Source: Helicobacter sp. MIT 99-5507 (lineage in GTDB: Bacteria > Campylobacterota > Campylobacteria > Campylobacterales > Helicobacteraceae). From it: a DNA stretch of 64,000 nucleotides. The DNA lies in contig NZ_NXLO01000003.1 of the NCBI RefSeq assembly GCF_003364295.1, positions 186,001-250,000 on the forward strand. Direction: 5' to 3'. The number at the start of each line of letters is the position of its first letter. Positions within the stretch are counted from its first letter, which is position 1. The notes beneath the pieces are model-generated. The model did no database searches. It had not been told where the DNA came from and saw nothing but the letters and a program-made list of their open reading frames with translations. A program made the translations under genes and the position numbers. Shown piece after piece: positions 1 to 27,035 of this stretch.

Positions 1-1949
1 AAGATCGTGTATATGGCTATGAAGAAATATTTAAAGAAGCAAAAAAATATACTCCTGAAGTAGTAGCAGATATTACAGGGATTCCAAGTGAGACAATTAT
101 TAGAATTGCAAAAGAAATGGCTAAAGCAAAACCAGCAAGCTTAGTGTGGAATCAAGGTCTAACACAACATACAGTTGGCACAAACAATACAAGAGTTATG
201 CCTATTTTACAAATGATATTAGGAAACATAGGTAAAAAAGGTGGTGGTGTAAATATCTTAAGAGGACATGATAATGTTCAAGGTGCTAGCGATATGAACA
301 ACCTTGCAGATTCACTTCCTGGATATTATGGACTTGGCGAAGGTCCTTGGAGACATTTTTGCAAACATTGGTATGTAGATTATGAATGGATGAAAAGTCG
401 CTTCAAAAGTAAAGAGATGATGGAGAAAACCGGCTATGCACTATCTACTTGGCGATTTGGTGTGCTTGATGAGGAAAATTATGCAAACAATGCAGATACA
501 CAAATCAAAGCACTTATTGTTATTGGTAATGGAATCTCAACTACAACCTTACTCGATAAAACAAAAGAAGCACTTGATAAACTAGAATTATTAGTATTTA
601 TCGATCCTTATGTAAATGATGTAGCTGTAGTAACTGATAGAAAAGATAATCTTTTCTTATTACCTGCTGCTTCACAAATGGAAACAAGTGGTTGTGTCGC
701 TGCTACAAATCGTGGATATCAATGGAGATATCAAGTAATCAAACCTATGTTTGAATGCAGAGAAGACCATGAGATTCTATTTGATTTAGCAGAGAGACTT
801 GGATTTAAAGAACAATATCAAAGAGCTCTATATGAAAATGCTAAAAAAGATGGTAGAAGCGAATTTATTTGGCCTGATGATGCAACAACAGAAATGGCAC
901 AAAGCATTAGAAGCATAGGATTGCAAGGACTTAGTGCAAAAAGATTAAAAGAGCATTGTGATAATTGGCATATGTTTGATAGCGTAACATTAGAAGGAAA
1001 AGGACCTATGAAAGGACAATATTACGCACTACCTTGGCCTTGCTGGAGTGAAAAACACCCAGGAACTCCAATAATGTATGCTGATGATTTACCTGTTATG
1101 AAAGGTGGTATGGGCTTTAGGGTAAATTGGGGCATAACTGCACCTGATGGAACAAATATGATGAGCTTAAGAGGCTTACCAGATTCCAAAATTAAAGGAC
1201 ATCCTGCTATCACTGCGGATAATATAGAAAGTGTCCTTGGTATAAAACTTACAAAAGAAGAGAAAGAAAAAGTAAAAGGCACTACATTTGCAACTGATAA
1301 TTCAAACATATTAGTTGAAAAAGCACTAGAAGCAGGAGTTTGTCCATATGGAAATGGAAAAGCTAGGATGGTTGTTTGGAATTGGTATGATAAGATTCCA
1401 CTACATAGAGAGCCTTTGCATAGCTTTAGGAATGATTTAATAAAACAATATCCAACATTCCCAGATAAAAAAGATTTATTTAGAGCAAATATAAAATATA
1501 TCTCAAGACAAACACAAAAAGATTGGAAGAGTGAATATCCGCTAAATATGCTAACAGGAAGATTAGTCGCGCATATGGGAACTGGAACTGAAACTAGAAG
1601 TGCAAAATATCTAGCTGAAATCCAACATGAAATGTTTGTAGAAATTCACCCAGATACAGCACTAAATCTAGGTGTTAGAGATGGTGATATGGTATGGGTA
1701 CATGGTACTTCTGGAACAAAGATTCTAGTAAAAGCTAGACATTCATATAGAGTTGATGAAAGTAGCGTTTTCTTGCCACAAAATTTCTCTGGTGTATATT
1801 CAGGTAAAAGCCTACTTGATAAATATCCACAAGGGACAGAACCTTATGCTATAGGTGAAGCTGTAAGCCTTATAACTAGCTATGGATTTGATTATAATAC
1901 TGCATGTCCTGAAACAAAATGTGGATTATGTAGAATTGAGAAAGCATAA
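1..1949 (+). CDS. fdhA: Formate dehydrogenase catalytic (molybdopterin) subunit, 5' end outside the window
   Basis: This is the C-terminal part (about 648 residues) of the large subunit that oxidises formate to CO2 at a bis-MGD molybdenum or tungsten centre. The frame is open from base 3, so the ATG at 117 is internal and the gene starts upstream of the window. Molybdopterin-oxidoreductase features are seen: the GGGVNILRGHDNVQG segment, the late LTGRL..HMGTGTETR block, and a molydopterin-dinucleotide-binding domain over the last 130 residues. The N-terminal 4Fe-4S site and the Cys or Sec active residue are not in view. Subunits B, C and the maturation factor follow at once, which fixes the identity as a respiratory, probably periplasmic, formate dehydrogenase. 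Confidence in function is high; the substrate is inferred from the operon. Confidence 0.93.
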   Translation, partial: DRVYGYEEIFKEAKKYTPEVVADITGIPSETIIRIAKEMAKAKPASLVWNQGLTQHTVGTNNTRVMPILQMILGNIGKKGGGVNILRGHDNVQGASDMNNLADSLPGYYGLGEGPWRHFCKHWYVDYEWMKSRFKSKEMMEKTGYALSTWRFGVLDEENYANNADTQIKALIVIGNGISTTTLLDKTKEALDKLELLVFIDPYVNDVAVVTDRKDNLFLLPAASQMETSGCVAATNRGYQWRYQVIKPMFECREDHEILFDLAERLGFKEQYQRALYENAKKDGRSEFIWPDDATTEMAQSIRSIGLQGLSAKRLKEHCDNWHMFDSVTLEGKGPMKGQYYALPWPCWSEKHPGTPIMYADDLPVMKGGMGFRVNWGITAPDGTNMMSLRGLPDSKIKGHPAITADNIESVLGIKLTKEEKEKVKGTTFATDNSNILVEKALEAGVCPYGNGKARMVVWNWYDKIPLHREPLHSFRNDLIKQYPTFPDKKDLFRANIKYISRQTQKDWKSEYPLNMLTGRLVAHMGTGTETRSAKYLAEIQHEMFVEIHPDTALNLGVRDGDMVWVHGTSGTKILVKARHSYRVDESSVFLPQNFSGVYSGKSLLDKYPQGTEPYAIGEAVSLITSYGFDYNTACPETKCGLCRIEKA

Positions 1950-1961
1950 GGGAGGTAATAA

Positions 1962-2594
1962 ATGAGTGAATTAACTAGCGGTGGATTTAATGCTACAAAT
2001 CATGCAAGAATAAAATTTTATTGTGATGAATTACGATGTATTGACTGCCATGGTTGTGATGTAGCCTGCAAAGAAGCTCATCACTTACCTGTTGGTGTAA
2101 ATAGAAGACGTGTAATATCAATAAATGACGGAATCGTTGGCAAAGAAAAATCAATCTCTATTGCTTGTATGCATTGCTCTGATGCACCATGCGCACAAGT
2201 TTGTCCTGTAGATTGCTTTTATATTAGAGCAGATGGAATCGTATTGCATGATAAAAAAACTTGTATAGGCTGTGGATATTGCTTATATGCTTGTCCTTTT
2301 GGGGCACCTCAATTCCCAAAATCAGATGTATTTGGTAGCAGAGGAACGATGGATAAATGTACATTTTGTGCTGGTGGTCCAGAAGAGACATTTAGCCAAG
2401 AAGAATATAAATTATATGGACAAAATAGAATCGCAGAAGGAAAAGTGCCAATGTGTGCTTCAATGTGTTCAACAAAAGCGTTACTTGCTGGAAATAGTGA
2501 TGAAGTAAATCATATCATTAGAACAAGAGTTACTAAAAAAGGTCAAAATTCACATACATCATCATATATGTGGAGTGCACCTTATAAAGAATAA
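1962..2594 (+). CDS. fdhB: Formate dehydrogenase iron-sulfur (electron transfer) subunit
   Basis: A 210-residue ferredoxin-like subunit passes electrons from the catalytic subunit to the membrane cytochrome b. Four cysteine clusters suited to 4Fe-4S centres are visible: C-x2-C-x2-C-x3-C near residue 25 (CIDCHGCDVAC), CMHCSDAPCAQVC near 65, CIGCGYCLYAC near 100, and the split CTFC/CASMC pair near 130-170. Length matches the family. It starts 12 bases after fdhA behind a clear GGGAGG Shine-Dalgarno, so the two are translated together. No transmembrane anchor is seen, as expected when a separate FdhC is present. Confidence 0.95.
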   Translation: MSELTSGGFNATNHARIKFYCDELRCIDCHGCDVACKEAHHLPVGVNRRRVISINDGIVGKEKSISIACMHCSDAPCAQVCPVDCFYIRADGIVLHDKKTCIGCGYCLYACPFGAPQFPKSDVFGSRGTMDKCTFCAGGPEETFSQEEYKLYGQNRIAEGKVPMCASMCSTKALLAGNSDEVNHIIRTRVTKKGQNSHTSSYMWSAPYKE

Positions 2595-2603
2595 GGGATA
2601 AAA

Positions 2604-3611
2604 ATGAGATTAGTGAAATTATTATTATTGTGTATTATTATGACTATCTCACAAGCCGCTGAAGAGGGATTTAAAGGTGCAATAGATTTAGAATACAACA
2701 AACATATTTATGGCAAAAATCAATTAGAAGCTATAAAAAACTGGGGGCTTGATACATCTAGTGCAGGTGTATCACTAGGTAATACCCTTGATTTTGTAGG
2801 TGGCAGTATAGATCCATTTACAAGTGGAGAAAAAATAGGTGGAATTAGAGGAATAAGCGGACTTGGTGAATTATTTACAATACTACAAAACAAGTATTTT
2901 AAGATAATATTTTTTGCCATTATTATATTAACTCCGCTAGCATTTTTTGGACATTTTATGATAGTTGGACAAAGAAAGTTTAATCATCATCAAAAATTAC
3001 AAGTATTCTCAAAATTTAATATTATTGTCCATTGGGGTGCTGCTGTGCCATTTGTGCTAATATGCATTACAGGTTTGATTATGGTATTTGGAGCAAATCT
3101 TGGCGGTGGAGCATTTGTTAGATTTGCAAGAGATGTGCATGGTATTGCTACACCAATATTTGCTGTCTTTGGAATCATGATGTTTTCTATGTGGTTTAAA
3201 GAATGTCTATTTAAAAAATATGATATTGATTGGTTTAAGATTATGGGTGGATATCTAAGTCAAGAAAATAAGCCTATTCCTGCTGGAAAATTTAATGCTG
3301 GACAAAAAATGTGGTTTTGGATAGCCACAATTGGCGGGGGTATTATGGTGCTAAGTGGTGGAATTATGTATTTTCAATACACAGATATCAATACTCTAAG
3401 ATTAGTAGCTATCATCCATAATGTAGTTGGTTTTTTAGTCATAGCAATGTTAATAACTCATATTTACATGAGCTTATTTGCGATAGAAGGCGCGATTGAA
3501 TCAATTATCAATGGGAAAATGGGTGAAGAAGAACTATCAATTCTACACAGCATTTATTATAAAGAATTGGTAGATTCTAATAGATTGAATTCAATGAGAG
3601 TTGCACATTGA
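2604..3611 (+). CDS. fdhC: Formate dehydrogenase cytochrome b556 (gamma) subunit
   Basis: A 335-residue membrane subunit takes electrons from FdhB and reduces the quinone pool. It has a signal peptide (about residues 1-18, ending near SQAAEE), a soluble stretch of roughly 80 residues, then four to five hydrophobic helices from about residue 98. Histidines for b haems lie in or next to helices (GHFMIVG, IVHWGAA, DVHGIA, IIHNVVG, ITHIYM). The long exported N-terminal region is longer than in the E. coli FdnI type and looks like the campylobacterial form. It lies 9 bases after fdhB and ends just before fdhD. Confidence 0.9.
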   Translation: MRLVKLLLLCIIMTISQAAEEGFKGAIDLEYNKHIYGKNQLEAIKNWGLDTSSAGVSLGNTLDFVGGSIDPFTSGEKIGGIRGISGLGELFTILQNKYFKIIFFAIIILTPLAFFGHFMIVGQRKFNHHQKLQVFSKFNIIVHWGAAVPFVLICITGLIMVFGANLGGGAFVRFARDVHGIATPIFAVFGIMMFSMWFKECLFKKYDIDWFKIMGGYLSQENKPIPAGKFNAGQKMWFWIATIGGGIMVLSGGIMYFQYTDINTLRLVAIIHNVVGFLVIAMLITHIYMSLFAIEGAIESIINGKMGEEELSILHSIYYKELVDSNRLNSMRVAH

Positions 3612-3612
3612 A

Positions 3613-4416
3613 ATGACTGCTGTGCAAAAACACACAATTTGCGTGCCAATTATCAAAATCGATGATAATGGCATAGCAAATACAAATGATACAATAATAA
3701 AAGAAGACCGCGTAAATCTATACCTCAATGGTTCAAAAATAATCTCTACAATGTGTATCTTAAAAGATCAAGATTACCATGCTGTTGGATTTTTGATGAG
3801 TGAAGGTGTGATTGAAAATATAGATGATATAAAAGACATACAAGTATCTAAAGATGGATTAAATGTATATATCAATGCAAAAATTAATGATGATAATATA
3901 TCTAATCTATTTCATGAAAAGACACTTACTTCTGGTTGCTGTGTAGGAGTGAGTGCAAATTTTGAAGGTAAAATTATAGAAAAATTTTTATCTCAAAAAG
4001 CAGAATTTAGCCTAGAACAAATAAGATTATATTTAAGTGAGTTTCAAAATAATACAGATTTATTTTCTAAAACTGGTTGCACTCATAAAGCTATGTTATT
4101 TTATGATAACAAAAAGCTTAGCAGCGAAGATATAGGTAGGCATAATGCAATTGATAAAGTATTAGGAAAAGCAAGAATGCTAAAAGCCAATATAAGCGAA
4201 TCTATCCTTATTGTTAGTGGAAGATTATCTATGGAAATGGTGATAAAATGTGCTATGCATAATGTGCCAATAGTGATATCAAATGCAGCCACAACAGCAC
4301 TTGGAATCAAATCTGCACAGAATCTAGGCATCACACTAATTGGATTTGCAAGAAATAATAATATGAATATCTACACTCATAGTAATAGAATCATATTGCC
4401 TAAAAAATTAGGCTAG
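3613..4416 (+). CDS. fdhD: Formate dehydrogenase accessory sulfurtransferase FdhD
   Basis: FdhD moves sulfur from a cysteine desulfurase to the molybdenum cofactor of formate dehydrogenase and is needed for its activity. Family blocks are clear: TSGCCVGVS with two adjacent cysteines (109-110) in the catalytic loop, TGCTHKAM, EDIGRHNAIDKVLG, SGRLSMEMV and NAATTALG. I place the start at the ATG at 3613, two bases after the fdhC stop; a TTG at 3601 in the same frame would overlap fdhC and has no better ribosome site. Its place as last gene of fdhABCD supports coupled expression. A GCCTAA-AAAA-TTAGGC hairpin lies within the last codons (4398-4413). Confidence 0.93.
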   Translation: MTAVQKHTICVPIIKIDDNGIANTNDTIIKEDRVNLYLNGSKIISTMCILKDQDYHAVGFLMSEGVIENIDDIKDIQVSKDGLNVYINAKINDDNISNLFHEKTLTSGCCVGVSANFEGKIIEKFLSQKAEFSLEQIRLYLSEFQNNTDLFSKTGCTHKAMLFYDNKKLSSEDIGRHNAIDKVLGKARMLKANISESILIVSGRLSMEMVIKCAMHNVPIVISNAATTALGIKSAQNLGITLIGFARNNNMNIYTHSNRIILPKKLG

Positions 4417-4423
4417 ATTCTGG

Positions 4424-5008
4424 TTATACTTTTTTTGTAATTTTATTTGCAAGTATAAAAAATAAAACAATAATTATAATTCCAACAATTGGAAAAATAT
4501 AAGGGTTTGAATATTTATCATATAGATTTCTAATAATATCACCCATTGCATAGCTAAATCCACCAATAAGAATACCCCATACAAATGAAGCAAAAAAGTT
4601 ATATATCAAAAATTTCTTACTATCAAATTTACTAAATCCAATCACAAGAGGAATGATAGTCTTAATACCATATAAATATTTATGAATAAAAATAATCAAA
4701 TAGCTATATTTTTTTATCCAAATATGGCTTAAAGCAATTTTTCTTCTATGAGCAGAAAAATACTTCATCACTTCTTTTTTTTGATACCTAGCCATATAAA
4801 ACAACAAGCTAGAACCAATAAAATTAGCAATAGAGGCGATGAATATGCAAACATAAATATTTAGAGAATTTATAGATTCTATTACTCCGCTTGATAAGAT
4901 AGAAGCAGCAATAAGAGCTACAAGCCCACCACCAAATGAATAAAAAAATAACACTGCATAGCCCCATATTCCTATTGATTGACTTAATGTTTCTAAAATA
5001 GATTCCAA
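4424..5008 (-). CDS. DedA-family (SNARE-associated) inner membrane protein
   Basis: The 194-residue protein is mostly hydrophobic, with about five membrane segments, and carries the DedA signature region: a glycine-rich re-entrant stretch near residue 24 (YSFGGGLVALIAAS), a basic turn RYQKKEVMKYF, then KYLYGIKTIIPLVIGFSKF and FVWGILIGGFSYAMG. DedA proteins are linked to lipid carrier or phospholipid scrambling and envelope homeostasis; the substrate here is unknown. The start is a TTG at 5008 preceded by AGGA at a suitable distance, with no nearby ATG. It is convergent with fdhD, whose stop is only 7 bases away. Confidence 0.85.
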   Translation of the reverse strand: MESILETLSQSIGIWGYAVLFFYSFGGGLVALIAASILSSGVIESINSLNIYVCIFIASIANFIGSSLLFYMARYQKKEVMKYFSAHRRKIALSHIWIKKYSYLIIFIHKYLYGIKTIIPLVIGFSKFDSKKFLIYNFFASFVWGILIGGFSYAMGDIIRNLYDKYSNPYIFPIVGIIIIVLFFILANKITKKV

Positions 5009-5117
5009 GTTTTTAATCCTAAATAAAAATAAAATAGATTCTATCTAACATTTAGAGGCTGAAAGAAATATGTTTATTTAAATATCAAAATATTAATAAA
5101 ATATTTCATATAGATTA

Positions 5118-5136
5118 TTTGGAATGTAATTTGCTT
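5118..5136 (+). promoter_or_regulatory. Sigma-54 (RpoN) promoter of flgG2-flgG
   Basis: The sequence TTTGGAATGTAATTTGCTT has GG at 5121-5122 and GC at 5133-5134 with exactly 10 bases between, the -24/-12 arrangement required by sigma-54. Transcription would start near 5146, 20 bases before the flgG2 ATG at 5167. An upstream in-frame TTG at 5119 lies inside this promoter and is therefore not the start codon. Middle flagellar genes of this phylum are known to depend on RpoN and FlgRS. Confidence 0.85.
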
Positions 5137-5166
5137 TATAGTGCTTATATCACTTTAAGGATTGTT

Positions 5167-6003
5167 ATGCAAAATGGATTTTACAATGCCACAGGCGGTA
5201 TGGTTACACAATTTAACAGGCTTGATGTTATTTCAAATAATCTAGCTAATGCAAATACAAATGCATTTAAAAGAGATGATGTAGTTATTGGTGATTTTAT
5301 GAGATTGTATGAAGAAGCAAAACACGAGCTTCCACTAGAAAACCACACAAGAGAATCTTCAAAGTTTTTAAATCGCACTTTAAATAGAGTTCCTATTGTA
5401 GTTATGGAATATAACGATATGAGTATAGGCAGTTTTAATAGGACTGAGAATCCACTTGATTTAGCACTTAGTAATCAAAATGCATTCTTTGCCATCCAAA
5501 CACCAAATGGCGTGCGTTACACTAGAGATGGGTCTTTTAGCCTAAATGATAATGGAATCTTAGTAACAAAGCAAGGATATCCGGTATTATCAAATGCTGG
5601 AATTAATGAAGGTGGCACAATAAATATCAATCTATCAAGCAATAATATAGAAATTAGTAAAGATGGAAGTATATATGTAAGAGAACTAAATAGAGCTGAT
5701 ATAGGTGAAGCAGAGCCTATTGGTGAAATAGCAATTGTAAATTTTACTAATCCAAAATATCTAAAAAAAGTAGGCAATAATCTATATGAATTGCCAGCTG
5801 AGAGACTAAATGAAAGACAAAGTATAAATAATAACAATGTAGTTTTGAGTGGGTTTATTGAAAAAAGCAATATCAATCCCGTAGAAGAGATGACTGCATT
5901 AATTAGCACAAATAGATTGGTAGATATGTATTCCAAAGTAATGAAAACATATCAAGATGACCTTAACACTGAAGCAATAACAAAACTAGCACAAAAAGGA
6001 TAA
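5167..6003 (+). CDS. flgG2: Flagellar distal-rod-type protein FlgG2 (FlgF/FlgG family)
   Basis: A 278-residue rod protein of the FlgG/FlgF family. The N-terminal flagellar rod motif is clear (FDVISNNLANANTNAFKRDD-like, reading LDVISNNLANANTNAFK near residue 25), as are the central YTRDGSF block and the C-terminal ALISTNRLVDMYSKVMKTYQ helix. It sits directly in front of flgG with a 3-base gap, the same pairing as flgG2-flgG of Campylobacter jejuni. The start ATG at 5167 is chosen because the sigma-54 promoter occupies 5118-5136. FlgF is the alternative name for this family position. Confidence 0.88.
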   Translation: MQNGFYNATGGMVTQFNRLDVISNNLANANTNAFKRDDVVIGDFMRLYEEAKHELPLENHTRESSKFLNRTLNRVPIVVMEYNDMSIGSFNRTENPLDLALSNQNAFFAIQTPNGVRYTRDGSFSLNDNGILVTKQGYPVLSNAGINEGGTININLSSNNIEISKDGSIYVRELNRADIGEAEPIGEIAIVNFTNPKYLKKVGNNLYELPAERLNERQSINNNNVVLSGFIEKSNINPVEEMTALISTNRLVDMYSKVMKTYQDDLNTEAITKLAQKG

Positions 6004-9706: not shown

Positions 9707-10468
9707 TTACAATGGAATATTGTATTGTCTTAATATATTTTGTGCCTCAATCATTTCATCATTTGTCGGCACTCTTGTATTTTCTAATTTATATTGAATC
9801 TGCAATTCTTTATATTTATAACTGCCTAATTGGTGAAATGGTATTAACTGAACTTTTTGAATACAAGAATATTTATTTAATAATTCCCCTAATTTATGTA
9901 TCTTATCTATGCTTAAAGTATATCCAGGAACACAAACATACCTTATCCATACACATTTATTGATGCTTTGTGCATATTCTAATGTCTTTAGTGTATTTTG
10001 ATTGCTATGCTCGGTTAAAACAATGCAGTCATTTTCATCAACTTCTTTTATATCAAGAAGCAACATATTTGCTTTATCTATGCACTTTTTTGAATACTTT
10101 AAATCAATAAAACCATTTGTATCAATAGCAGTGTGAAATCCTAGAATCTCAAGTGCTTCAAGCAATGAATATAAAAATTCATGTTGAAACAAAGGCTCTC
10201 CACCTGATATGGTTACACCACCATTTTTGTAGAATTTCTTGTAGGCAAGTATATTTTTTAATATATTTTTTGCACTTATTTCTGTGCCACCTTGTGGATT
10301 CCAAGAATCTGGATTATGGCAATAAAGACATCTTAAATAACAACCTTGTAAAAATAATACAAATCTTATCCCAGGTCCATCAACTGCACCAAAAGTCTCA
10401 ATTGAATGAACCCTGCCTTTTATTTTTTTATAATTATTTAGTATCTCTTCTTTATTTATTTTTGACAT
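9707..10468 (-). CDS. pflA: Pyruvate formate-lyase activating enzyme (radical SAM)
   Basis: PflA uses S-adenosylmethionine and a 4Fe-4S cluster to install the glycyl radical on PflB. The 253-residue protein has the activase motif C-x3-C-x2-C in GCYLRCLYCHNPDSW (about residues 42-56), preceded by GPGIRFVLFLQG, and the SAM-binding GGVTISGGEPLFQ block. It lies 13 bases after pflB on the same strand and closes the pair. Length fits E. coli PflA (246). The adjacent substrate gene makes the assignment firm. Confidence 0.95.
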   Translation of the reverse strand: MSKINKEEILNNYKKIKGRVHSIETFGAVDGPGIRFVLFLQGCYLRCLYCHNPDSWNPQGGTEISAKNILKNILAYKKFYKNGGVTISGGEPLFQHEFLYSLLEALEILGFHTAIDTNGFIDLKYSKKCIDKANMLLLDIKEVDENDCIVLTEHSNQNTLKTLEYAQSINKCVWIRYVCVPGYTLSIDKIHKLGELLNKYSCIQKVQLIPFHQLGSYKYKELQIQYKLENTRVPTNDEMIEAQNILRQYNIPL

Positions 10469-10481
10469 TTAAACCTAAATT

Positions 10482-12719
10482 CTACATTCTTTGATGAAAC
10501 GTTCGAGATATAACATCTTCTTGCTGCTCTCTTGTTAATTTAATAAAATTAACAGCATACCCACTTACACGAATAGTAAGCTGTGGATATTTTTCTGGAT
10601 AAATCATCGCATCTTTTAATACATCTTTTTGCAATACATTTACATTTAGATGATATCCACCATCACTAAAATATCCATCCATTAGCTGGACTAGATTCTG
10701 CCTTTGAGATTTATCATCACTGCCTATTGCACTTGGGATAATAGAAAATGTATTTGAGATTCCATCTTGAGAATATTTAAATGGTATCTTTGCAACAGAG
10801 CAAAAACTAGCTACACAACCACTGCTATCTCTTCCATGCATAGGATTAGCCCCCGGAGCAAATGGCTCTCCAGCTTTTCTACCATCAGGTGTAGTTCCTG
10901 TTTTCTTTCCATATACAACATTTGAAGTGATAGTTAAGACACTCATTGTAGAAATAGAATCTCTATATGTATCGTGCAATGCTAATCTTTGAGAAAAGAT
11001 CTTTACTATATCAACTGCAATTTCATCAACTCTATCATCATTATTTCCATATTTTGGATAATCACCTTCAATATCAAAATCAACAATCAATCCATCTTTA
11101 TTTCTAATTGGTTTTACTTTTGCATATTTGATGGCTGATAGAGAATCTGCTATTACAGATAAACCTGCTATACCGCCTGCCATAGTTCGAGTTATATTTT
11201 CATCATGCAATGCCATTTGTATTCTCTCATAGCAATATTTATCATGCATATAGTGAATTACATTTAGAGTATTTATATACAATCTTGCAAGCCAATCAAA
11301 AATAATATCAAGTTTTGATCTTACTTCATCATAATCTAGATATTCACCTTGTGTAGGTGCGATATTTGGTCCAACTTGAAGCCCTAATTTTTCATCTTTA
11401 CCTTCATTTATTGCATATAATAATGCTTTTGCTAGATTACATCTAGCACCAAAAAACTGCATTTGTTTGCCAAGTCTCATTGGAGATACACAACATGCTA
11501 TACCATAATCATCTCCAAATTCCTCAAGCATAATTTCATCACTTTCATATTGTATTGATGATGTTTGTATGCTAATTTCTGCACAAAATTCTTTAAAGTT
11601 ATTAGGCAAGCGGTGATTCCAAAGTATTGTCATATTTGGCTCTGGAGCTGGTCCTAGATTTCTTAAAGTATGTAAAAATCTAAATGACATTTTTGTAACT
11701 AAATGCCTACCATCTAAGCACATACCACCGATACATTCAGTCACCCATGTAGGATCACCAGAGAAAAGCTCGTCATATTCTGGAGTTCTAAGGAATCTAA
11801 TCATTCTAAGTTTCATTACAAAATGATCAACCATTTCTTGAATCTCTTCCTCACTATATTTTCCACTCTCTAAATCTCTTTGAGCATAAATATCTAAAAA
11901 TGTAGAGATTCTACCAATACTCATTGCCGCACCATTTTGCTCTTTTGTAGCAGCAAGATAAGCAAAATAAAGCCATTGTATCGCTTCTTTTACATCAGTC
12001 GCAGGCTGTGATATATCAAATCCATAAGATTTAGCCATCACTTTCAATTCATTTAAAGATCGAATTTGCTCTGATATTTCTTCTCTTGCTCTAATGGTAT
12101 CAGAATCCATTACATCTGGAACCATTTTCTTCTTTGCCTTGATTTTTTCCTCTATTAGTTTATCGACACCATATAAAGGAACGCGTCTATAATCTCCTAT
12201 GATTCTACCTCTTCCATAGGCATCTGGAAGTCCTGTAATAATTGCTGCTTTTCTTGCTAAAAGCATTTCATCAGTGTAGGCATCAAAAACACCATCATTA
12301 TGGGTTTTGCGATATTTAAATACATTTGCTACATTTGGGTCTTCTTTTTTGCCATAAGCATCTAGTGAGCTTAATACCATTCTATATCCACCAAATGGCA
12401 TTATTGAACGTTTTAGTGGTTCATCTGTTTGAACACCAACTATAGATTCTAAATCTTTATCTATATATCCTGGTTTATGTGATGTGATAGTAGAAATAAT
12501 ATCTGTGCTTACATCATATACACCGCCTCTTTGACGCTCTATTTTCATCAAATCACAGACTTTTTCCCATAGTTTAATAGTTTTTTTAGTAGGAGATACT
12601 AAAAAACTACTATCGCCATCATAAGGAGTGTAATTTTTTACAATAAAGTCTCTTACATTTATTTCGTCTTCCCATAAGCCACTTTCAAAATAGCTATAAA
12701 ATTTACCTGCATTACTCAT
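10482..12719 (-). CDS. pflB: Pyruvate formate-lyase (formate C-acetyltransferase)
   Basis: PflB cleaves pyruvate with coenzyme A to acetyl-CoA and formate under low oxygen. The 745-residue protein keeps both active-site features: the adjacent cysteine pair in [18 protein letters not shown], and the glycyl-radical loop RVSGYAVNF with Gly720 near the C-terminus. The overall length and order agree with E. coli PflB (760), so this is the true pyruvate enzyme rather than a glycerol or choline lyase. It leads the pflB-pflA pair. Upstream is a perfect FNR-type box at class II distance from a -10, which predicts anaerobic control. Pyruvate formate-lyase is not a core enzyme of Helicobacter, so gene gain is possible. 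Confidence 0.95.
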
Positions 12720-12771
12720 CGTAAAATCCTTATAATATGTAATAGCAAAGTTATTAAAAACTTACGTTTTC

Positions 12772-12777
12772 ATTGTA
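12772..12777 (-). promoter_or_regulatory. -10 box of the pflB promoter
   Basis: TACAAT on the minus strand lies 22 bases downstream of the FNR-type box at 12800-12813. This places the box centre 32 bases from the hexamer centre, as in class II FNR promoters (box at -41.5). Transcription would start near 12765. A CTTAC/GTAAG inverted repeat (12761-12765 with 12775-12779) overlaps it. Confidence 0.6.
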
Positions 12778-12799
12778 AGGAAACTATGTATATATAGGT

Positions 12800-12813
12800 T
12801 TGATAAAAATCAA
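12800..12813. promoter_or_regulatory. Perfect FNR/CRP-family operator upstream of pflB
   Basis: The sequence TTGAT-AAAA-ATCAA matches the FNR consensus TTGAT-N4-ATCAA at every defined base. It is intergenic, between the pflB start and the end of the glutathionylspermidine-synthase-like gene, and is 81 bases before the pflB ATG. A regulator of the Crp/Fnr family elsewhere in the genome is predicted; none is in this window. Confidence 0.65.
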
Positions 12814-12828
12814 AATTTATTAAATAAA

Positions 12829-13995
12829 TTATTTAATCATATGTGATACAAATTTTGCATAATTATCCATTATATCACCACCTTTGCGAAATCCTAATCC
12901 GCAACTTTCATATGCAAAAAATACATTTGGTTGATAATATATGCCATTATGTGAATTTAATTCATAAAATTCTTGATATACGCTTTTATAGTTGCCATAT
13001 TCACCGCCTCTTTGCTCCAAGATTCTATTAGAATCTAAAATATCAATATTTGCACCTTCTCTACCAAATGAAACTTTTTTAACTTGCTTTTTATTTAGTG
13101 GTTCAAACGAACTCTCAAGCAATAATGGATGATTTGGAAATAAATCCCATAGAATCTTTAACATTCTTTTACTTTGAAATAAAAGAGTATAAGCTGGATT
13201 TAAAAATATAGTATTTTTATTTTTTATCATATTATTGATGATTAATGCCAATTCTGGCTCATCTATACTAATAATCTCCCAAGGCAATAATTTAAATAAA
13301 AATTCATATTTAGCACCATCAAATGAAACACCATCTAGCTCATTAAAATTCACTTCATCAATATAGCAAAACTCACTTACAAAACCTGCTTCTCTTGCAC
13401 ACTGCATCAAGAATCTTGTAGTTCTTTCTTCCTCAATATTTCCTCTAATACTAGAAAATAAAACTCCCCAATCCTCATATAATTCATCAAATCTACTTAC
13501 ATCATCCCCAAGAGTAATCATTCGCTTAAAATTATCTCTAATTGCATCAAATATATTATTAAATTGTTTTTCTTCATTTAATCCATTGTGTTTTAATAAT
13601 GCCCATTGAATAAGTGCGCTCTCATATAGCAATGTAGGCGTATCGGCATTAAATTCTAATAATTTTATTTGCTTTCCATCAAGTCCGCCTGCAAAATCAA
13701 ATCTACCATAAATATGCCAATGCACTTCATTTTCCCAGCTTTGTTTTATAGTATCAATCAAGGTTGTAGGAATATCTAATTCAAAAAATAAATTATTTTT
13801 TATCACATATTCACCAGCTTCAATAAACATATCATAAAGCTCATTTCCAGCATCATAAAATGCTTCTGCTTCATCTTGTGTGATTTCTATCACTTCATTT
13901 GATATATAATTAGTTTTATCTAAATCTGTATGCCAATCTAGCCCAATTTCTTCTAGAATCTCATTTGTTAGAGGTTTTACTTCTATAATATCCAT
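12829..13995 (-). CDS. Glutathionylspermidine-synthase-family ATP-grasp enzyme
   Basis: The 388-residue protein belongs to the family with the glutathionylspermidine synthase pre-ATP-grasp and ATP-grasp domains (YgiC/YjfC-like). Seen in the sequence are GRFDFAGG followed by LLEFNADTPTLLYE (about residues 104-125), the typical family core, and the C-terminal REGANI and FFAYESCGLGFRKGG blocks. These enzymes form amide bonds with an acid substrate; the true substrate of the stand-alone bacterial type is not known, and the amidase half of E. coli GspA is absent here. It abuts kdsB (its ATG directly follows the kdsB stop), so the two are probably cotranscribed. Confidence 0.8.
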   Translation of the reverse strand: MDIIEVKPLTNEILEEIGLDWHTDLDKTNYISNEVIEITQDEAEAFYDAGNELYDMFIEAGEYVIKNNLFFELDIPTTLIDTIKQSWENEVHWHIYGRFDFAGGLDGKQIKLLEFNADTPTLLYESALIQWALLKHNGLNEEKQFNNIFDAIRDNFKRMITLGDDVSRFDELYEDWGVLFSSIRGNIEEERTTRFLMQCAREAGFVSEFCYIDEVNFNELDGVSFDGAKYEFLFKLLPWEIISIDEPELALIINNMIKNKNTIFLNPAYTLLFQSKRMLKILWDLFPNHPLLLESSFEPLNKKQVKKVSFGREGANIDILDSNRILEQRGGEYGNYKSVYQEFYELNSHNGIYYQPNVFFAYESCGLGFRKGGDIMDNYAKFVSHMIK

Positions 13996-25316: not shown

Positions 25317-27035
25317 TTAAAAATCTTTCTTTCTATCTAATTCCTTTGATTCCTCTAATCCAGCCGTAGCATCGTTAGTTTCTACTATACGATTTACTAC
25401 TTCAGAATATCCTAAATCTTGCAGACTTGGATTATCATCAGATCTTTTAATAATATGTGGTGTGATGATAATAATCATTTCAGTTGTTTGCTCTGATGTG
25501 CCATCATATGAGAATAAATATTTTAATAATGGAATATAACCAAGTATTGGAACTCTATTTGTGTTATTTGAAACACTTTTGCTTATTAATCCACCTAATA
25601 CAACTCTATCGCCATCTTTTGCTCTTACTAAAGAAGAAAGCTGATTTGATGATAGGTTTGGTGGCTCAGATAATGCTGTAGCTGCGTTTTCTGTATTTCT
25701 ATCCTTTGTTTGTGTAATAGAAGGATTAATCTTTAGCATAATATATTCACCTTGCACAGATGGAGTAACATCTAATAATACACCAGAGAATACTGATGGG
25801 AAGCTAGTAGATGTATTTTGAGTTGTTCCACCAGAAGATGAATTTTGAAATACTGAACTTTGTGCATATCTTAAAATACTACCAACGCTTATTAAAGCAG
25901 GTTGATTGCTAAGGGTTAATACTTTTGGATTTGATACAGATCTTACTTTTCCATATGCATTTAAAAATTCAACTATTCTAGTCATTTGAACACCAGATGA
26001 AAAAATATTGATACTAGTGCCACCACCGCCAATATCAATTCTAGTATTATCTTCATTTCCAGAAGCATAAGCAGGAACTAAAAGATTACCAAAATTCCAA
26101 AATTGATTCCAATCAACACCAACAGTATTTGAATTTGTATGAGTTACTGTCAAAATATTTACATCTATCATAACTTGATTTTGAATTTGGTCTTCAAGAT
26201 TTTTGATGTATTTTCTTACTCTATCAAGCTGTTTTACTGTTCCTGTTACAGTTACCAATCCTGCAATTTTATTTACAACAACACTCTGTCCATCACCAAT
26301 GTCATAACCCTGTGCTTGATTAGAATCTTGAGCATCTTGCTGGTCTTGAGAGTTAGAAAAGATTCTTTTTGGTTGATGTGCATCACCTGGTCTAAAGGCA
26401 ATTTCAAAAATTTCTTTTTCTAATCTACCCCAAAAATCAAATTGATCCATAGATAGTATTTTTGTTCCAGATATACTATCTACTTTTCCGCTTTGTAATC
26501 CATTTGAAGTAAGAGAAGAATGGACGCTATTTTGAATATCTGTTGTTGTAGATGCAGAGTTTAAACCACCACCTGTAGTGCCTGTGCCACCTGTATTGCT
26601 TGTTGTAGAACTATCAGAAGTCATAGCATTTTGAGATAATACTATATCTGTATTACTTGCGCCGATTCTAGAAGTACCAATATAATTGATTTGGAATGTT
26701 TCAGTAATCAAAAAAGATACTTTTAATAAATTACCATTAAATTCATAATTTAATTCATTCTCAGTAAGTATCAAATCAAATATTTTTTCTATTGGCAATT
26801 GTCTAACATTTACTGAAGCAATACTTTTTGATAGCTTATCTTTAGCAGCTCTATCTTGAACAAGCATGCTATAACCACATTCTGCAGCCAATTGACTAAG
26901 TAAATCGCCAACTGCTACACCATCTTGACTTGAAGTAGAAATAGTGAATAATCTATCTCCACATAATTCGTTTGCATGCAAAAAATGTGCACTCACTAAT
27001 AAACCAAATACTAAAGTAAAAATATTCTTTCTCAT
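25317..27035 (-). CDS. Outer-membrane secretin (MshL/CtsD/PilQ-like)
   Basis: The 572-residue protein has a signal peptide (cleavage after about residue 22, near HANEL), a secretin/TonB short N-terminal (STN) domain (about 45-115), a Ser/Thr/Gly-rich linker (about 130-180), an N1-like domain (near 250-290, NKIAGLVTVTGTVKQLDRVRKYI), and a C-terminal secretin beta-barrel region with VVLGGLISKSV and RVPILGYIPLLKYLF. This is the multimeric gate for a pilus or DNA-uptake pseudopilus. Length and STN domain match MshL. It is the fourth gene of the operon. Confidence 0.92.
   Translation of the reverse strand: MRKNIFTLVFGLLVSAHFLHANELCGDRLFTISTSSQDGVAVGDLLSQLAAECGYSMLVQDRAAKDKLSKSIASVNVRQLPIEKIFDLILTENELNYEFNGNLLKVSFLITETFQINYIGTSRIGASNTDIVLSQNAMTSDSSTTSNTGGTGTTGGGLNSASTTTDIQNSVHSSLTSNGLQSGKVDSISGTKILSMDQFDFWGRLEKEIFEIAFRPGDAHQPKRIFSNSQDQQDAQDSNQAQGYDIGDGQSVVVNKIAGLVTVTGTVKQLDRVRKYIKNLEDQIQNQVMIDVNILTVTHTNSNTVGVDWNQFWNFGNLLVPAYASGNEDNTRIDIGGGGTSINIFSSGVQMTRIVEFLNAYGKVRSVSNPKVLTLSNQPALISVGSILRYAQSSVFQNSSSGGTTQNTSTSFPSVFSGVLLDVTPSVQGEYIMLKINPSITQTKDRNTENAATALSEPPNLSSNQLSSLVRAKDGDRVVLGGLISKSVSNNTNRVPILGYIPLLKYLFSYDGTSEQTTEMIIIITPHIIKRSDDNPSLQDLGYSEVVNRIVETNDATAGLEESKELDRKKDF

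Follow-up and report, generated by a model that had tools for sequence, protein, structure and literature searches.

A predicted class II Crp/Fnr-type activator site upstream of pflB and a nap-linked NssA-like protein as its likely reader in Helicobacter sp. MIT 99-5507

Pyruvate formate-lyase (PFL) is an oxygen-sensitive enzyme, and pfl is a target of FNR in enteric bacteria. The 64,000-nucleotide stretch of DNA analyzed here (the window) carries a pflB gene with an FNR-like palindrome in its promoter, which raises the question of whether this palindrome is a functional activator site and, if so, which regulator reads it. The promoter and the operon are made up of the following features, the start being inferred from the -10 element with a 6-base discriminator and the ribosome-binding site from the sequence.

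12800..12813, minus strand: predicted class II activator box, TTGATAAAAATCAA, which reads TTGATTTTTATCAA on the pflB strand and has the form TTGA-N6-TCAA
12772..12777, minus strand: -10 element TACAAT, 22 bases 3' of the box
12765, minus strand: predicted transcription start
12727..12731, minus strand: likely ribosome-binding site AAGGA
10482..12719, minus strand: pflB, pyruvate formate-lyase (formate C-acetyltransferase), 745 aa (TIGR01255, 1186 bits, cut-off 994)
9707..10468, minus strand: pflA, PFL-activating radical SAM enzyme, 253 aa (TIGR02493, 277 bits, cut-off 232)

The ATG of pflB lies at position 12719, and a gap of 13 bases separates pflB from pflA, so that the two genes are probably cotranscribed. 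The original prediction of a box followed after exactly 22 bases by TACAAT was confirmed at 12800-12813 and 12777-12772, and with the start predicted at 12765, the box centre at 12806.5 falls at -41.5. This spacing fits a class II Crp/Fnr promoter and is kept in the orthologous promoters of G004 and G003, and no evident -35 element is present. Upstream of pflB, a stand-alone glutathionylspermidine-synthase-like ATP-grasp protein (PF03738) is encoded at 12829-13995, and the same neighbour is found in G002, G003, and G004 (G000 denotes the genome that contains the window).

A perfect box is by itself not beyond chance. The sequence TTGATN4ATCAA occurs 13 times genome-wide, and 12 of these copies lie within ORFs, including the window's other perfect box at 26103, which leaves the pflB copy as the sole intergenic one. 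In dinucleotide-shuffled intergenic DNA, the box alone had a mean count of 0.37 and appeared at least once in 33% of the shuffled sets. In contrast, the combination of the box, 22 bases, and TANAAT was found in only 1 of 200 such sets, so the box together with its spacing and -10 element is unusual. The chance level of the bare box, and its position 15 bases beyond the stop codon that closes the preceding same-strand gene, would suit a coincidental match, or else a weak terminator hairpin belonging to that gene, with no regulator involved. We consider this very improbable, because the predicted fold is weak (-3.3 kcal/mol, z -0.77), the layout recurs at nrf and nap, and the orthologous promoters changed in a manner that a hairpin does not explain. 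The pflB promoter of G004, another species of the genus, reads TTGATTTTTCTCAA, 22 bases, and TATAAT, and that of G003 reads TTGATTTTTCTCAA, 22 bases, and CATAAC. Both keep the half-sites TTGA and TCAA and the exact spacing of 22, while the spacer sequence has diverged and one inner palindromic base is altered, a pattern that fits a protein site and not a hairpin. The pflB palindrome thus looks like a genuine Crp/Fnr activator site of the predicted class II type.

Among the genomes compared, pflB was detected in all four other members of the genus and in 1 of 35 other genomes of the family and order. When the orthologous promoters were compared, the box was absent upstream of pflB in G001, G002, and G011. 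The box of G003 persists although its pflB is frameshifted; at this locus (L284, G003 contig 12, 95001-115000), pflB is split into several frames and the adjacent genes are intact.

To which other genes does the site belong? We compared 394 genes that have an intergenic upstream region and an orthologue in G004, a comparison that covers ~70% of G004. A perfect TTGA-N6-TCAA followed by 20-23 bases and TANNAT was present in both genomes at two genes only, pflB and nrfH, whereas each of 83 permuted control motifs (half-sites and spacers) yielded zero conserved genes in the same 394 regions. The NrfH gene and its adjoining nitrite reductase gene were identified, and a pattern search placed the class II layout ahead of nrfHA in all five genomes of the genus. 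The napA promoters of G000, G001, G002, and G004 carry TTGA-N7-CAA, which is one mismatch away from TTGA-N6-TCAA, followed by exactly 22 bases and TAAGAT or TACTAT. In eight further genera of Helicobacteraceae, a class II box at nrf was present in G005, G006, G010, and G013 and was not found in G007, G011, G012, or G014; in G010, the same site pattern precedes both nap and nrf. Taken together, the predicted regulon comprises nap, nrf, and pfl, that is, the path from nitrate through nitrite to ammonium plus the production of formate. With the nap-linked NssA-like protein described below as its likely reader, the pflB site is better called an Nss/Dnr-type box; TTGA-N6-TCAA is the published Nss consensus (PMC11539149). 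Of these genes, nrf is also a target of FNR in enteric bacteria (PMC12285233).

An extensive FNR regulon built on perfect sites was rejected, as intergenic TTGA-N6-TCAA shows no genome-wide enrichment. Weaker conserved sites (at most two mismatches, with TANNAT) numbered 21 against a control mean of 8.3 and exceeded all controls; the genes are mixed, and we make no claim for them. Conserved matches to TGAT-N3-ATCA were also discarded: out of four, three represent extended -10 elements (TGATACAAT), and a pair of these falls within one common divergent region. Separately, the cytochrome c peroxidase gene (ccp) of G004 has a one-mismatch box upstream, TTGCTATATATCAA, followed by 21 bases and TAGAAT; this box is not found in G000, where the orthologue lies at C3:179795-180817.

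A search of the genome for regulators, as proposed with the original prediction, returned two Crp/Fnr genes, encoding proteins A (204 aa) and B (236 aa). Both have an ExxSR recognition helix, and one of them, B, has N-terminal cysteines, as anticipated, but the FNR arrangement of these cysteines was not found. The gene for B lies outside the window, on the minus strand of G000 contig 1 at 186942-187649. Only gmd separates B from napA in G000, G001, G002, and G004, and the best B homologue in G010, a 2.1-Mb genome that we take to be Wolinella-like, also adjoins napA. Phylogenetically, B forms the sister lineage of a nap/PilJ-linked NssA-like clade (90/95), while A clusters with short globin-type regulators; the NssA-like lineage of B is drawn from gene position and from G010 rather than from comparison with a named NssA sequence. 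In Nitrosophilus labii, the nap-linked protein is likewise the NssA-like one (PMC11539149), and the Nss proteins of Wolinella activate nap and nrf (PMC12285233). Regulators of the B lineage occur in G005, G006, G010, and G013, the very genomes with an nrf box, whereas G007, G011, G012, and G014, which have no nrf box, contain no Crp/Fnr protein of the B lineage but none at all or one of a different type. From its place in the tree, its gene position, and this co-occurrence, B is the likely reader of the pflB box.

The recognition helices are compatible with this assignment. A and B both carry Glu at CRP position 181 (E181), and the helix reads QETLSR in B versus VETISR in FNR. NssR of Campylobacter jejuni has Q181 and binds TTAACN4GTTAA (PMC1274295); E181 in A and B, unlike Q181, is as expected for a TTGA-type site such as that of pflB. 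Protein A shares with NssR the Crp/Fnr family and a link to truncated globin: its gene is divergent from a truncated globin gene, which parallels the globins that NssR controls in C. jejuni. As A180/E181 and S184/R185 of A also suit TTGA-type sites, and A occurs in both complete genomes that have a pflB box, G000 and G004, this NssR-like protein might read the box instead and place pflB in a nitrosative-stress response. We regard this as unlikely. In G000, the region that separates A from the globin gene contains no clear box, and G001 has a conserved nrf box, yet B is its only Crp/Fnr gene. Moreover, the occurrence of nrf boxes does not follow that of the A-type clade: G014 contains a regulator of this type and is without the box.

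Besides the lack of genome-wide enrichment of the motif and the E181 of protein A, several findings within the genus count against B as the reader. In G001, B ends early, after the recognition helix, and in both G001 and G002, B is present, yet pflB has no box. No B was detected in the small G003 assembly, which is 56% complete, and G003 keeps both the nrf and the pfl boxes. Autoregulation of B was also considered and rejected, since its upstream region contains no box.

In this genus, and in no other, B appears to be without the nitrate-sensor-like partner that normally accompanies it and to have acquired conserved cysteines. A PilJ-domain membrane protein gene lies directly downstream of the regulator gene in 9 of 11 members of the sister clade of B, whereas no PilJ domain was found in the five genomes of the genus; adjacency to a PilJ gene is a criterion drawn here from the sister clade and not a published one. 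A PilJ-type fold is also used by nitrate sensors of the NarX/NarQ type. A gene order in which an NssA-like Crp/Fnr regulator precedes a PilJ-domain membrane protein is conserved across Campylobacterota (loci L030, L032, L033, L034, L035, L036, L043, L050, and L059), and our literature search found no paper describing it. B itself has cysteines at the N terminus (C7xxxC11), in a loop insertion (C90), and at C115xxxC119, which are invariant in the four genus orthologues. The relatives examined are without this five-cysteine set; the first cysteines are missing, and C115 and C119 are present in some of them. B also sits on a long stem branch in the tree. In the alignment to Escherichia coli FNR, B has Leu in the column of C122, and its N-terminal spacing differs, with only two N-terminal cysteines, so that the FNR ligand set C20/C23/C29/C122 is not matched and B is not an FNR orthologue; an equivalence of B C119 with FNR C122 was rejected by the same alignment. 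It is plausible, on the pattern of conserved residues, that B has evolved on its own into an Fe-S or redox sensor.

These features bear on a true oxygen-sensing switch of the FNR type, in which B would hold a [4Fe-4S] cluster, be active only without oxygen, and activate pfl, nrf, and nap. The type of site, its predicted class II position, and the ExxSR helix agree with such a switch, as do the five genus-specific cysteines, the lack of a PilJ domain in the genus, the oxygen sensitivity of PFL, and the standing of pfl and nrf as enteric FNR targets. Nevertheless, we hold it to be a doubtful minority reading. The Leu at the C122 column and the different N-terminal spacing speak against it, the content of the regulon suits a response to N-oxides equally well, and Campylobacterota encode no FNR orthologue according to a review (PMC6682613). 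Of the original reading as an FNR box, the class II Crp/Fnr-type site is supported, and its reader is better supported as the nap-linked NssA-like regulator; FNR itself is not borne out, given that C122 position and a predicted regulon otherwise devoted to nitrate and nitrite respiration. An oxygen signal for B is possible in view of the genus-specific cysteines and the loss of PilJ. By comparison, B resembles E. coli FNR in the ExxSR helix, the TTGATN4ATCAA-type site, the predicted class II position, the control of pfl and nrf predicted here, and the presence of N-terminal cysteines, and differs from it in cluster ligands, in not being orthologous, and in its small predicted regulon. Compared with NssA, NssB, and NssC of Wolinella succinogenes (Kern and Simon 2016, as cited in PMC11539149, PMC6682613, and PMC12285233), B is like them in its Crp/Fnr family, predicted TTGA-N6-TCAA sites and nap and nrf targets, nap-linked gene, and Dnr-like helix, and unlike them in having no adjacent PilJ-domain gene, in its C7xxxC11, C90, and C115xxxC119, and in pflBA as an added predicted target.

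We therefore favor, as the probable explanation from comparative sequence evidence, that B reads the pflB palindrome as a class II activator site and would coactivate nap, nrf, and pfl. A dimer of B would bind TTGA-N6-TCAA centred near -41.5 and aid RNA polymerase at a -10 element that lacks an evident -35. The sites with their conserved spacing, the position of B next to nap, and the joint occurrence of its lineage and nrf boxes are read from the sequences, whereas binding, activation, and B as the reader are predictions. In this manner, B would turn on napAGH, nrfHA, and pflBA together, whose products convert, respectively, nitrate to nitrite, nitrite to ammonium, and pyruvate to formate, and the formate made by PFL could serve, via formate dehydrogenase, as an electron donor to the nitrate-ammonium chain. 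A formate-dehydrogenase-like molybdoenzyme gene straddles the start of the window (1-1949; G000 C3:185157-187949), which makes formate plausible as a donor. A single TGA lies in frame at C3:185682, with a counterpart in the other genus genomes; it is presumably read as selenocysteine, which would make the product a selenoprotein. The signal to which B responds is the weakest link of the explanation. As B has no PilJ-domain partner and has five conserved cysteines, its input may be a redox, oxygen, or NO signal, perhaps borne by a metal or by the cysteines themselves. The Nss proteins of Wolinella answer to nitrate, NO, or N2O.

The operon itself is probably a horizontal acquisition. When genomes were scanned species-wide with pflB, its nearest homologues beyond the family came from Clostridia, with at most 77% identity; cyanobacteria and others were also matched, and no Campylobacterota were among the matches. 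As the nearest homologues are clostridial and most other Helicobacteraceae are without pflB, this distribution suggests that pflBA (9707-12719) was acquired horizontally. A tentative extension of these observations, which we put forward as a conjecture that may well be wrong, is a sensor swap: a nap-linked Nss regulator would have lost its PilJ membrane partner, evolved a cysteine-based, probably Fe-S, site, converged on an FNR-like oxygen or redox switch, and recruited the probably horizontally acquired pfl operon into a nitrate/nitrite regulon.

It is an open question (PMC6682613) by what means Campylobacterota, in the absence of FNR, ArcA, and NarP, detect oxygen and shift to an anaerobic metabolism. 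To this question, the locus contributes a concrete candidate regulator, three promoters predicted as its targets, each with a defined spacing, and a genus that is without the PilJ-domain partner but has new cysteines. It further suggests that a fermentation enzyme has been wired into a respiratory regulon, in which the formate produced by PFL would feed the nitrate-to-ammonium chain.
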